Assembly (NCBI RefSeq): GCF_016629665.1
Contig: NZ_JAEPRQ010000001.1
Coordinates: forward strand, 310,001 to 374,000
Source of the DNA: Paracoccus caeni
GTDB taxonomy: Bacteria > Pseudomonadota > Alphaproteobacteria > Rhodobacterales > Rhodobacteraceae
Reading direction: 5' to 3'
Length of the DNA: 64,000 nucleotides
Each line of letters begins with the position of its first letter. Within the stretch, counting starts at the first letter, position 1. Below, piece by piece: positions 22,083 through 56,038 of the stretch. The notes beneath the pieces were generated by a model that saw only the letters and a program-made list of their open reading frames with translations, made no database searches and was not told the origin of the DNA. The position numbers and the translations under genes are program-made.

Positions 22083-22781
22083 ATGGATTTCAAGCATGTC
22101 GATGTCTGGATCTTCGATCTGGACAATACGCTTTACCCGCCCGAGATGGCGCTGTTTCCGCAGATCGAAGAGCGTATGACCGCCTATGTCATGCGTCTTC
22201 TGGAGGTGGATGCGAAAGCTGCCGACCGATTGCGGCGGGATTACTGGTCGCGGCACGGGACCACGCTGGCCGGTCTGATGGCCGAGCATGGCATTGATCC
22301 GATTGAGTTTTTGGACGAGGTGCATGATATCGACTTCACCCCGATCCTGCCCGCGCCGGAACTTGCTGCGGCCATTGCCGCGCTGCCGGGGCGGAAGATC
22401 ATCCATACGAATGCCGATGCGGCCTATGCGGTGAAGGTGCTGCGGGCGCGCGGGATGGGGCTGGTCGATGACCGGGTGCCCGCGCCCTTGTTCGAGGCGA
22501 TTTATGGGATCGGCGAGACGGAATATTGCCCGAAGCCACAGCGGGCGGCCTTTGAGACGGTGATCTCCTGCGCCGGGTTAGACCCTGAAAAGGCTGCATT
22601 TTTCGAAGATGATCCGCGCAATCTGCGGGTTCCGCATGAGATGGGGATGAGGACGGTGCTGGTCGGGCCGGGGCGGGACGGGCCCGAGCCTTTGGGGGCA
22701 TCTGCGCCGGGTTATGTCGATCATCACGTCCATGACCTTACTGGATTCCTGTTGGAGATTTATGCGTCGTTGAAGCAATAA
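22083..22781 (+). CDS. Pyrimidine 5'-nucleotidase, HAD superfamily (SDT1-like)
   Basis: The 232-residue HAD phosphatase starts with motif I DLDNTLYPPE (about 12-21; nucleophile D12 and acid D14). It has motif II in IIHTNAD (about 102-108), a Lys in EYCPKPQRAAFE (motif III) and motif IV EDDPRNL. The DLDNTLYP motif is characteristic of the pyrimidine 5'-nucleotidase (yeast Sdt1/Phm8) subgroup, which dephosphorylates UMP, CMP or related nucleotides. The stop is followed 10 bases later by repeat copy A. The real start is ATG 22083; the long frame before it overlaps antisense to three genes. Confidence 0.88.
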   Translation: MDFKHVDVWIFDLDNTLYPPEMALFPQIEERMTAYVMRLLEVDAKAADRLRRDYWSRHGTTLAGLMAEHGIDPIEFLDEVHDIDFTPILPAPELAAAIAALPGRKIIHTNADAAYAVKVLRARGMGLVDDRVPAPLFEAIYGIGETEYCPKPQRAAFETVISCAGLDPEKAAFFEDDPRNLRVPHEMGMRTVLVGPGRDGPEPLGASAPGYVDHHVHDLTGFLLEIYASLKQ

Positions 22782-22790
22782 ACAGCGGCT

Positions 22791-22958
22791 GCGCAACGGG
22801 GCGGGCGTTGCTTTCGGTATTTTTGCAACGAAGAAATCCCGGTCTGGGCGCCGGGGTGAAATTGTCAGCAAATGCTGGGAATTCGGCGGCACAGGGCGTC
22901 CACCGCGCATGCACCGGATGTGCACAGGCTGTACACAGCTTGCGAACGGTGGTGTTGC
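22791..22958 (+). repeat. Intergenic repeat, copy A
   Basis: This 168-base segment is a diverged copy of 55880-56038. Both begin GCGCAACGGG and end GGTGTTGC. They share the hairpin arms CGTTGC...GCAACG (22806-22811, 22825-22830) around a variable loop, then the box GAAGAAA. The 12-base dyad CAGCAAATGCTG (22866-22877) follows, and then a GTGCAC/TGTACAC-rich stretch. It fills the gap between the nucleotidase and the monooxygenase. No gene is apparent in it. Confidence 0.75.
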
Positions 22959-24228: not shown

Positions 24229-24559
24229 GGCGGTGTGGGTCGGCAGAGGTCCGAATGGAAAATGTCCGGGGGACATTTTCTCGGACCGATTGCCCGAAGG
24301 TGCAAGCCGTAGGGCAAGGGGCGTGCCACCAGAGCCGACATCTGCAATCCGGTCGCGCCTGACTGGGCTGGCGCGGTAACGCGCCTGCCAAAGGGCAGGC
24401 AGGCGCGGCCGGATTTGCCGCGGGACAAATCCGGCGAAGAAATGGCGACCACATCGCGTTGTCGGCAAGAAGCAGATGGTTGCCATTTTGCCGCCATGCA
24501 GGTCGGTTTGATCCCGCCGCCTTGTTGTGTGGAAAAGCTGGCCCTATCTCTTGCCCACA
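24229..24559. repeat. Intergenic mosaic of inverted repeats between the monooxygenase gene and sugE
   Basis: Three strong inverted repeats follow one another in about 190 bases. The first is 24248-24287, a nested hairpin with 7-bp outer and 10-bp inner perfect arms and a GGG loop. The second is 24381-24389 with 24398-24406, and the third is 24408-24417 with 24426-24435, a 10-bp perfect arm. The first could terminate the monooxygenase gene. The rest look like REP-type units. No gene is supported here. Confidence 0.6.
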
Positions 24560-24620
24560 GAGGACGACCTCCCCGATATGGGTAGATTGGCCGGGACGAC
24601 CCGGTTCGCATCAAGAGGTC
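24556..24620 (+). ncRNA. Guanidine-II (mini-ykkC) riboswitch upstream of sugE
   Basis: Two short hairpins each end in an ACGA tetraloop, the ACGR loop that defines this class. P1 is GAGG-ACGA-CCTC (24560-24571) and P2 is CCGGG-ACGA-CCCGG (24591-24604), both perfect, with a 19-base linker. A purine-rich AAGAGG ribosome-binding site follows at once before the sugE ATG, where the class normally acts by freeing the site when guanidinium is bound. The neighbouring gene is the expected one. An Infernal search with the guanidine-II model would settle it. Confidence 0.9.
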
Positions 24621-54752: not shown

Positions 54753-55870
54753 GCGATCTGCAGGCTGCGTTCGATTTTCTCTGTGAGGCCGACCGGCTGA
54801 AATCGGTGGATCGGGCCAGTGTGCTGATGGACCTGTCGCGGGCCGAGAACAGCGCCGAGCATAGCTGGCATGTCGCGCTTTACGCGATGGCTTTTGGTGC
54901 CTCGGATCGGGCTATCGCCATGATCCTGCTGCATGATCTGGTCGAGATCGATACCGGCGACCATCCGATCCATCTGGCGCATGATGCAGAGGCGGTGGCG
55001 GCGGCCGAACTGGCGGCGGCGCGGCGGTTGTTCGGGATGATCCCGAATGGCGATGAGATGATCGGGCTGTGGCAGGAATTCGAGGCGGCAGAGACCGAGG
55101 ACGCGCGCTTTGCCAAGCGCATGGATCATATCCAGCCGCTGTTTCAGGTGCTGCTTGCGCCCACGCCGATTCCTGAGCATCTGGATATCTGCCGTGACAA
55201 TATGAGCCGGGGTCGGGCGCTGCGGTTAAGGCAGGAATGGCCAGCAATCATTGAGGTTGCAGAGGCTTTGATGGCCGGGCGCGGGGCCGAGACGGGGGTG
55301 GCGGCGCGGCTTCGGTTTCTGGCCGAGGCAGATCGGCTGAAGTCGGTGATGCGGGCCGGGCGCATTCATTCGGGGCGGCGCGAGAACAGTGCCGAGCATA
55401 GCTGGCATCTGGCGCTTTACGCGCTGATCCTTGCGCCTCTGGCGGGTGAGGGCGTGGAGATCGGGCGGGTGATCCGGATGCTGATCCTGCATGACCTGCC
55501 AGAAATCGATACCGGCGATGTCCCGATCCATTCCGGCAATGGGCTGACTCATCACGGAGCCGCGCAGATGGCGGCGGAAGAGGCTGCGGCGGCGCGCATC
55601 TTCGGGTTGCTGCCGGGCGAATTGTCTCGTGAATTCAGGGCGCTTTGGGATGAGTTCGAGGCGAATGAGACGCCGTCCTCGATCTTTGCCAATGCGCTGG
55701 ACCGGGCGCAGCCGGTTATGCTGAACATCGCCTGCGGTGGCGGGACGTGGACCGAATATCAGGTGACGCGGCAGCAATTGCAGGACCGCGTAGGGGTGAA
55801 GATCCAGCGCGGGATGCCGGAGCTTTGGGACTGGCTGCTTCAGCGGTCGGACGGGATGCTGGCAGGCTGA
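54749..55870 (+). CDS. Tandem HD-domain phosphohydrolase (duplicated YfbR/HDDC2-like)
   Basis: This 373-residue protein is made of two homologous HD domains, about 1-180 and 187-373. Each holds the family motifs: EADRLKSV (13-20 and 193-200), ENSAEHSWH (33-41 and 212-220), HDL-EIDTGD (62-71 and 248-257) and the last Asp (D126 and D318). The metal-binding His, His-Asp and Asp set is therefore intact in both halves. YfbR and HDDC2 proteins are single-domain homodimers that dephosphorylate deoxynucleoside 5'-monophosphates. Here the dimer seems to be fused in one chain. GTG 54749 overlaps the previous stop. Repeat copy B follows 10 bases after the stop. Confidence 0.85.
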   Translation: MSDLQAAFDFLCEADRLKSVDRASVLMDLSRAENSAEHSWHVALYAMAFGASDRAIAMILLHDLVEIDTGDHPIHLAHDAEAVAAAELAAARRLFGMIPNGDEMIGLWQEFEAAETEDARFAKRMDHIQPLFQVLLAPTPIPEHLDICRDNMSRGRALRLRQEWPAIIEVAEALMAGRGAETGVAARLRFLAEADRLKSVMRAGRIHSGRRENSAEHSWHLALYALILAPLAGEGVEIGRVIRMLILHDLPEIDTGDVPIHSGNGLTHHGAAQMAAEEAAAARIFGLLPGELSREFRALWDEFEANETPSSIFANALDRAQPVMLNIACGGGTWTEYQVTRQQLQDRVGVKIQRGMPELWDWLLQRSDGMLAG

Positions 55871-55879
55871 AAGCCACCC

Positions 55880-56038
55880 GCGCAACGGGTTGCGGGCGTT
55901 GCAATCGGTATTTTAGCAACGAAGAAACGCAGGTGCGGCTTTGGCCAGCAAATGCTGGGATTTTGGCTGCACAACCCGTCCACTGCGCGTGCACAGGGCG
56001 AGCACAGCCTGTACACCGCTTGCGCACGCTGGTGTTGC
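55880..56038 (+). repeat. Intergenic repeat, copy B
   Basis: This 159-base segment is homologous to 22791-22958, in the same orientation relative to its flanking genes. Conserved parts are the GCGCAACGGG start, the hairpin arms CGTTGC (55897-55902) and GCAACG (55916-55921), the box GAAGAAA, the dyad CAGCAAATGCTG (55946-55957), the GTGCAC/TGTACAC stretch and GGTGTTGC at the end. Loops and spacers differ. It lies between the tandem HD gene and icd. Confidence 0.75.

Follow-up and report, generated by a model that had tools for sequence, protein, structure and literature searches.

Dispersed intergenic repeats such as BIME/REP and ERIC lie at gene ends or between convergent genes and form species-specific subfamilies. 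Among proteins with scattered chromosomal sites, the archaeal SegB has the RHH fold. SegB of the Sulfolobales is described as a centromere-type protein with tens of scattered chromosomal sites, some of them upstream of its own operon (PMC12284271). CdbA from M. xanthus is described as an RHH nucleoid-associated protein that binds at hundreds of chromosomal sites, recognizes in them a direct repeat spaced by one helical turn, and is required for nucleoid organisation (PMC7156744). ParR-type RHH proteins bind direct repeats of 10-11 bp (11 bp for plasmid R1) around the promoter of their own operon, the DNA wrapping on a helical oligomer and the promoter being repressed (PMC9426499, PMC5016525), and BrnA controls its own operon in the BrnTA toxin-antitoxin system (PMC11980606).

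The element analysed here, of which the window (the whole stretch of DNA under study, 64,000 nucleotides from Paracoccus caeni) contains two copies, shares some features with each of these systems and differs from all of them. Its core is an array of direct repeats, and the candidate partner is an RHH protein. As with CdbA, there is a candidate RHH protein, a large number of candidate chromosomal sites and a direct-repeat motif with halves separated by one helical turn, and CdbA is described as bending DNA; unlike here, the CdbA sites are degenerate, make 569 peaks and lie mostly inside genes (PMC7156744), whereas we found long, near-perfect five-unit arrays, nearly all intergenic and numbering about 30-75 in each of the three species with the best counts, and a candidate protein that belongs to the BrnA family. 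The position of the candidate RHH gene behind 11-bp direct repeats recalls ParR/parC of plasmid R1, but R1 has a single plasmid site beside parM and not dozens of chromosomal sites. With SegB the family would have in common a centromere-type DNA-binding protein with tens of scattered sites, some upstream of its own operon; in contrast, the SegB motif is short, single and mostly inside genes, its partner is the ATPase SegA and the system is archaeal (PMC12284271). The match of the RHH protein to PF14384 (BrnA antitoxin) connects it to BrnTA, from which it differs by an extra N-terminal region in several proteins and by an array of several sites. Finally, the element is dispersed and intergenic, present at gene ends and in convergent gaps and divided into species-specific subfamilies like BIME/REP and ERIC, but its core is a phased direct-repeat array instead of a hairpin, the host has no RAYT-type Y1 gene and array positions are shared across genera. 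Among the open-access papers listed on intergenic repeats of Paracoccus and Rhodobacteraceae, on GTGCAC repeats and on RHH/BrnA operators, none was seen to describe the family, which is no proof of novelty, and the available main text of a REP survey (PMC12306157) does not mention Paracoccus or Rhodobacter.

The features of the two copies are collected in Table 1. Both blocks were located where a preliminary description, made from the letters of the window, had placed them, and copy A used as whole-genome query recovers copy B at E=1.9e-29, a similarity far above chance. Copy A starts 9 nt past the stop TAA at 22779-22781 and copy B 9 nt past the TGA at 55868-55870, with 73 nt (start 23032) and 145 nt (start 56184), respectively, up to the next start, in agreement with the announced placement about 10 bases after a gene stop and 70-150 before the next start. 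The CGTTGC/GCAACG arms, the GAAGAAA box and the 12-base dyad CAGCAAATGCTG highlighted at that time are indeed present in both copies. In the cross-species alignment the dyad is conserved, but neither the GAAGAAA box nor the arm GCAACG on the second side is, and the array of 11-bp repeats, which the preliminary description had left unnamed, turned out to be the part common to other genera.

Table 1. Coordinates of the two element copies and of their parts in the window.
Feature	Position	Strand	Basis or remark
Element copy A, GCGCAAC...GTGTTGC	22791..22958	+	Between HAD-type and ubiH-like gene (names by sight); = host contig C11:332789-332955
5' dyad GCGCAAC..GGGCGTTGC, copy A (block A)	22791..22811	+	Sequence; conserved in most aligned Paracoccus copies
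Inverted repeat CGTTGC-N13-GCAACG, copy A	22806..22830	+	Second arm typical of host species
12-bp dyad CAGCAAATGCTG, copy A (block B)	22866..22877	+	Conserved across Paracoccus species
Array, five 11-bp units, copy A	22886..22938	+	CAC at 22890, 22901, 22912, 22923, 22934
3' block TTGCGAACGGTGGTGTTGC, copy A	22940..22958	+	Sequence
Element copy B, GCGCAAC...GTGTTGC	55880..56038	+	Between 373-aa ORF and isocitrate dehydrogenase gene (name by sight); = host contig C11:365878-366035
5' dyad, copy B (block A)	55880..55902	+	Sequence; cross-species alignment
Inverted repeat CGTTGC-N13-GCAACG, copy B	55897..55921	+	Sequence, host alignment
12-bp dyad CAGCAAATGCTG, copy B (block B)	55946..55957	+	Sequence
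Array, five 11-bp units, copy B	55966..56018	+	CAC at 55970, 55981, 55992, 56003, 56014
3' block TTGCGCACGCTGGTGTTGC, copy B	56020..56038	+	Sequence

The family is "two-copy", as first described, only inside the 64-kb window. In the draft host assembly (4.19 Mb, 20 contigs), blastn with copy A gave at least 41 matches, including at least 40 strong ones. A sequence-only model, derived from 32 copies that represent many species, gave at least 75, of which 65 at E<1e-13; model counts are lower bounds since the best 150 of 4503 candidates were scored in the host. Scoring the best 23 candidates per genome, again a lower bound, the model found the family in 52 of 125 Paracoccus genomes (E<=1e-4). 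Two genomes in few contigs, G075 and G023, contain 70 and 31 matches, and in the seven genomes with a large main contig all matches (70, 31 and 71) are on that contig; for six of these genomes 14.3 matches were expected off the main contig by length (P 1.5e-7, with rounded genome sizes). Plasmids and phages gave no match by distant blastn, a weak test in which the same query found just 25 of 101 Paracoccus genomes. Copy spacing is random in both G075 and G023; a distribution more even than expected by chance was seen only on the host contig C11. Four genomes showed no bias towards a replication strand or the terminus, with a mean distance from dnaA of 0.40-0.46 of the half-chromosome (KS p 0.08-0.82). 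These results indicate no simple role in replication or segregation. A separate observation concerns the host contig C15 (268 kb), which has one copy when each of C16-C19 (195-232 kb) has three to five; C15 is possibly an extrachromosomal replicon, or else an island.

Across Paracoccus, the element presents in order the 5' dyad GCGCAAC..GCGNGCGTTGC, a variable stretch, the dyad CCAGCANNTGCTGG, the five-repeat array and a 3' block. In the host species the variable stretch contains GGTATTT, the second GCAACG and AGAAA, the 3' block reads TTGCG...GTTGCG and, in a test for terminal inverted repeats, the ends carry GCGCAAC/GTTGCG; in other species this 3' end varies. Sequence statistics (column identity, nearest neighbours and target duplications) were computed on 132 of 162 fetched elements (70 of 75 from the host, 67 of 70 from G075 and 25 of 31 from G023), those near full length and with E<1e-12. 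When the 53 near-full-length host copies are aligned, identity reaches at least 90% in 81 of 158 columns and stays below 60% in 24, and the closest pair is 90% identical; this split between conserved motifs and variable spacers is unlike the decay of recent copies and points to selection on the motif positions, as the preliminary description had proposed from two copies.

The repeat unit of the array is approximately YGTRCACM, and all units point in the same direction. In a unit profile of 85 elements CAC has a frequency of 96-100% in every one of the five units; the preceding T reaches 91-100% in units 2, 4 and 5 but 36-73% in units 1 and 3; copy B has GTCCAC in unit 2 and GAGCAC in unit 4. 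In the 150 of the 162 fetched elements that were kept for the phasing count, the CAC-CAC distances pile up at 11, 22, 33 and 44, five CACs being in the 11-bp register in 122 elements and four in the other 28. The nearest neighbour by sequence is in the same genome for 131 of 132 elements, and variants of the motif run in concert within a genome although the spacers are not homogenised, which is expected if the sites follow one shared trans-acting binding protein. Looking at other genera, each of those represented by G379, G309, G372 and G323 seems to prefer its own unit and spacer (e.g., GTACACAACCC, GTACACCCCCC, GTACACCGTGC, GTGCACCACCC), as if site and binder drifted together. We also observed that 31 of 108 arrays of 19 other genera have a GTTAAC, GGTTAA or TTAACC word no more than 80 nt away, against 0 of 108 control windows (taken 700 nt upstream, mostly within genes), and a similar word between the array and the ATG of several RHH genes; this word may be the site of a second protein.

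Gene surroundings were read from a codon-usage caller trained on the window, which is rough for other genera, and the statistics of gene-pair orientation and shared neighbours used elements with E<1e-8. The family is present in many copies, intergenic and at gene ends as known for REP/BIME: no element lies inside a called gene in the host (0/70) or G075 (0/67), and two of 25 do in G023; convergent gaps hold 27 of 69 host elements, 31 of 67 in G075 and 12 of 25 in G023; for comparison, 8 of the window's 62 gene pairs are convergent. In 79 of 112 cases a co-oriented stop codon is found -10 to 20 nt from the 5' edge, compared with 25 of 101 for the 3' edge and an opposed stop, and in convergent pairs it is the 5' edge that is nearer in 58 of 69 (binomial p 7.6e-9); tandem pairs show no clear orientation bias (42 sense, 32 antisense). 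In other genera, 61 arrays are in tandem, 25 in convergent and 19 in divergent gene pairs (n=105), and as they are mostly tandem, the preference for gene 3' ends is mainly a feature of Paracoccus.

Individual positions turn over between species. The nearest named relatives of the ubiH-like gene beside copy A belong to Paracoccus, and an HMM of the host copies gave no match at E<=0.01 in 80 loci around this gene (best E of 0.2 without filters; 42 of the 80 loci were inspected further), hence the copy-A site is not common to the named relatives. The gap orthologous to that of copy B measures 101-109 bp in four relatives versus 316 bp in the window and from 129 bp to more than 1 kb in others, some with extra genes, and no array was found in the orthologous loci of 19 relatives (L170-L188). 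Between the host and G075, five adjacent orthologues are shared on the same side, including murB, which is also shared with G023; the host and G023 have murB, rpsO and the holC-pepA gap in common (names by sight), and the between-species comparison added a few genes with the element on the opposite side.

Outside Paracoccus, the full model, with the best 10 candidates scored per genome, reaches 11 other genera weakly and at least 13 of 295 genomes in all, and in the copies that were read the array alone is plainly shared. A strict three-unit pattern matched in 20 of 295 Rhodobacteraceae genomes, with up to 49 matches in one of them and a single match in total for the reversed control, and the array recurs in 19 genera of the family besides Paracoccus. 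With a looser three-unit pattern applied class-wide, the host had 15 matches and only one other genome of 385 was matched; in the 380 alphaproteobacteria outside the family this pattern gave 1 match. Its reversed control had 3 matches in 2 genomes. The 108 distinct strict arrays of the 19 genera frequently occupy orthologous sites: gltD in 5 genera, prfC/RHH in 4, an lpd-side gene in 4 and yhhQ-arfB in 3 (names by sight).

The RHH gene came from comparing a weak host copy consisting of the array only (L226) with a full G075 copy (L309), both of which are just upstream of orthologous genes (62% identity) with products of 171-175 aa. Searching 439 loci at E<=1e-3, we matched this gene in nine, from the host, G075, G029, G400, G415, G217, G196, G316 and G384 (seven genera), and each time it follows an array directly and shares its strand; this count is conditional on arrays because their presence had been the reason for choosing most of the other loci, and 107 array-less control loci (653,549 bases) gave no match. 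Each of the seven intact proteins scores above cut-off for PF14384, the RHH family BrnA_antitoxin. The stretch K-[TV]-R-V-T-[LI]-R-L-D, the DNA-contacting part of RHH proteins, is nearly invariant. From the array end to the ATG there are 72-92 bp in the seven intact loci, one of several possible ATGs having been chosen in L410, L413 and L423. The gene is a relic in G029 (L126), and its N-terminal part is interrupted by in-frame stops in G400 (L372), two genomes in which arrays are common (at least 23 model matches and 16 pattern matches, respectively).

Outside Paracoccus, 6 of 19 genera have the RHH gene next to an array, the top count when RHH proteins are grouped by homology and other genes at 40% identity or more (gltD, 5); grouping all genes at 28% or more, two clusters, one of mixed gltD/lpd genes and one of ABC-ATPases, extend to 7 genera each against 6 for RHH. 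In four of these six cases the gene across from RHH is prfC, and these four count as one inheritance. At least five contexts are found in total, with prfC (4 genera) or an epimerase-like gene and, in Paracoccus, with dnaE2-like, trkA-like or amidohydrolase-like genes (names by sight); it is this fixed, downstream and co-oriented arrangement, kept as the neighbours change, that sets the RHH gene apart. The other 13 genera (e.g., those of G372, G379, G323, G142 and G309) have no RHH gene beside the copies examined. A BrnT-like sequence pattern is absent from the nine loci, and no ParM motor gene was recognised by sight in flanks of about 1 kb beside the RHH gene. With the RHH protein as query, phmmer against the PDB gave no relevant match and tblastn against plasmids none; a viral scan returned 25 loci with BrnA-like stretches, with no array near them.

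The element very probably acts as DNA, as a site to which a protein binds, and the BrnA-family RHH protein is probably the partner of its array. The preliminary description had left the choice between selection on structure and on protein binding; the exact helical phasing at 11 bp and the linkage with the RHH gene argue indirectly for the second. By analogy with ParR, CdbA and SegB, the array would line up binding sites for RHH dimers along one face of the helix, with the DNA wrapped or bent, the RHH protein, of the BrnA-antitoxin family and here without visible toxin gene, would regulate its own gene through the array in its promoter, and the dispersed copies, about 70 per chromosome in the host, at gene 3' ends or between convergent genes, would serve as genome-wide docking sites for what would most likely be a nucleoid-organising or centromere-type factor. 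Taken as a whole (a protein binding the arrays, controlling itself and acting as such a factor), we give this scenario slightly better than even chances. A role in chromosome organisation, judged on its own, is a tentative assignment that falls somewhat short of even. The parts of the Paracoccus element outside the array are unexplained by the RHH reading.

One alternative assigns the arrays to a different DNA-binding factor, the RHH gene being just one of several conserved genes carrying such a site. The recurrence of gltD, the lpd side and yhhQ-arfB beside arrays, the two broad clusters that overtake the RHH gene at looser grouping and the persistence of broken RHH genes beside arrays are in its favour, but it leaves aside that the gene is downstream and co-oriented in 9 of 9 loci, at 72-92 bp where intact and in changing contexts, and that RHH proteins are known to bind direct repeats whose period is close to one turn of the helix (PMC9426499, PMC7156744); we consider it unlikely. 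Less probable again, in our view quite improbable, is a non-autonomous mobile element of MITE or REP type, spread by an unknown transposase, which would carry an RHH operator by descent and need no host function. Most positions indeed differ between species, with just the five same-side neighbours shared by the host and G075; orthologous sites without the element exist (the copy-B gap and L170-L188), the GCGCAAC/GTTGCG ends are present in the host and subfamilies are species-specific. Against this, target-site duplications for k=3-10 were about as frequent as in shuffled flank pairs (53 host copies), near-identical copies are absent in the host, the spacers diverged while the motifs were kept, the Y1 (RAYT) transposase PF01797 has 0 candidates in the host and any in 12 of 125 Paracoccus genomes, and the blank blastn against plasmids and phages goes in the same direction, weak as it is. 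The mobile element was tried on these grounds and found no support.

Other alternatives start from the position at gene ends, which topological readings fit as well, although we rate them low. A gyrase or topology site at transcription-unit ends like the E. coli BIME-2, in which phased flexible steps would help the DNA to wrap on the topoisomerase, accounts for the placement at 3' ends and in convergent gaps, and the E. coli gyrase motif is described as 130 bp long with arms of 10.75-bp periodicity and sites downstream of operons (PMC6379681). A helical AT periodicity was detected in the left arm of the host copies (p 0.021), but it is weak there in G075 and G023 (p 0.054 and 0.25), and just outside the array it appears in these two genomes (p 0.001 and 0.008) and is absent in the host. 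Gyrase, besides, reads shape and not an invariant CAC, and it is universal whereas the arrays, the sole part kept outside Paracoccus, are not, which makes such a site very improbable. We give equally poor chances to a transcribed 3'-UTR element or terminator, composed of a hairpin after the stop codon and a Rho-loading stretch: the proximity of the 5' edge to co-oriented stops and its nearer position in convergent pairs would suit it, but tandem pairs have no clear bias, and RNA structure, the other half of the initial proposal, found no backing. RNAalifold gave double changes in 1 of 24 predicted pairs in 27 host copies and in 0 of 6 pairs across species (32 copies, consensus fold of -2.85 kcal/mol), the hairpin arms being invariant in the aligned host copies and so uninformative on covariation either way. 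Sense-strand folding of the 132 elements is close to that of dinucleotide shuffles, with median z of -0.7 (host), 0.0 (G075) and 0.3 (G023) for the 5' block and, in the same order, -0.2, -0.8 and 0.3 in the array. Folded as antisense, the array gains some stability over the shuffles (-1.1, -1.8 and -0.9). Neither copy A nor copy B matches an Rfam family at gathering score. An RNA element was rejected on the alignment folding, the shuffled folding and Rfam, the conservation being one of sequence and not of structure, and the 11-bp spacing without indels, a property of the DNA helix, argues against the RNA and terminator readings as well. Of the observations on which the preliminary description had made its reading depend, further copies and shared dyads were found in number and covariation was absent, which leaves this reading unrefuted. 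Finally, the units resemble weak DnaA boxes (NTNTNCACA at 9+2 spacing), with a T-N-CACA core and the 11-bp spacing, and could form DnaA-titration clusters; position 3 of the unit is mostly G and not A/T, position 5 is mostly a purine, and about 70 clusters with no significant origin bias in four genomes fit badly with this role, to which we attach hardly any credence. Elsewhere in the window, a Guanidine-II (mini-ykkC) riboswitch was recognised at 24556-24604 (+), with 33.2 bits for a gathering score of 32.

Returning to the RHH protein as the owner of the arrays, the data suggest a chromosome-organising system that is so far undescribed. In its most specific form, which is possible but which we lean against as a complete picture, a solitary RHH protein of an antitoxin family would have become a chromosome-organising or centromere-like protein of Rhodobacteraceae, its conserved, phased "iteron" arrays would be dispersed over the main chromosome and kept off plasmids, and the 160-bp composite of Paracoccus would mark the ends of transcription units. 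If this holds true, a widespread bacterial family would gain a site-specific chromosome system that has not been described before and for which a candidate protein can be named, an antitoxin-type repressor would have turned into a genome-wide architectural protein, and multi-replicon bacteria would possess a tag telling chromosome from plasmid DNA.
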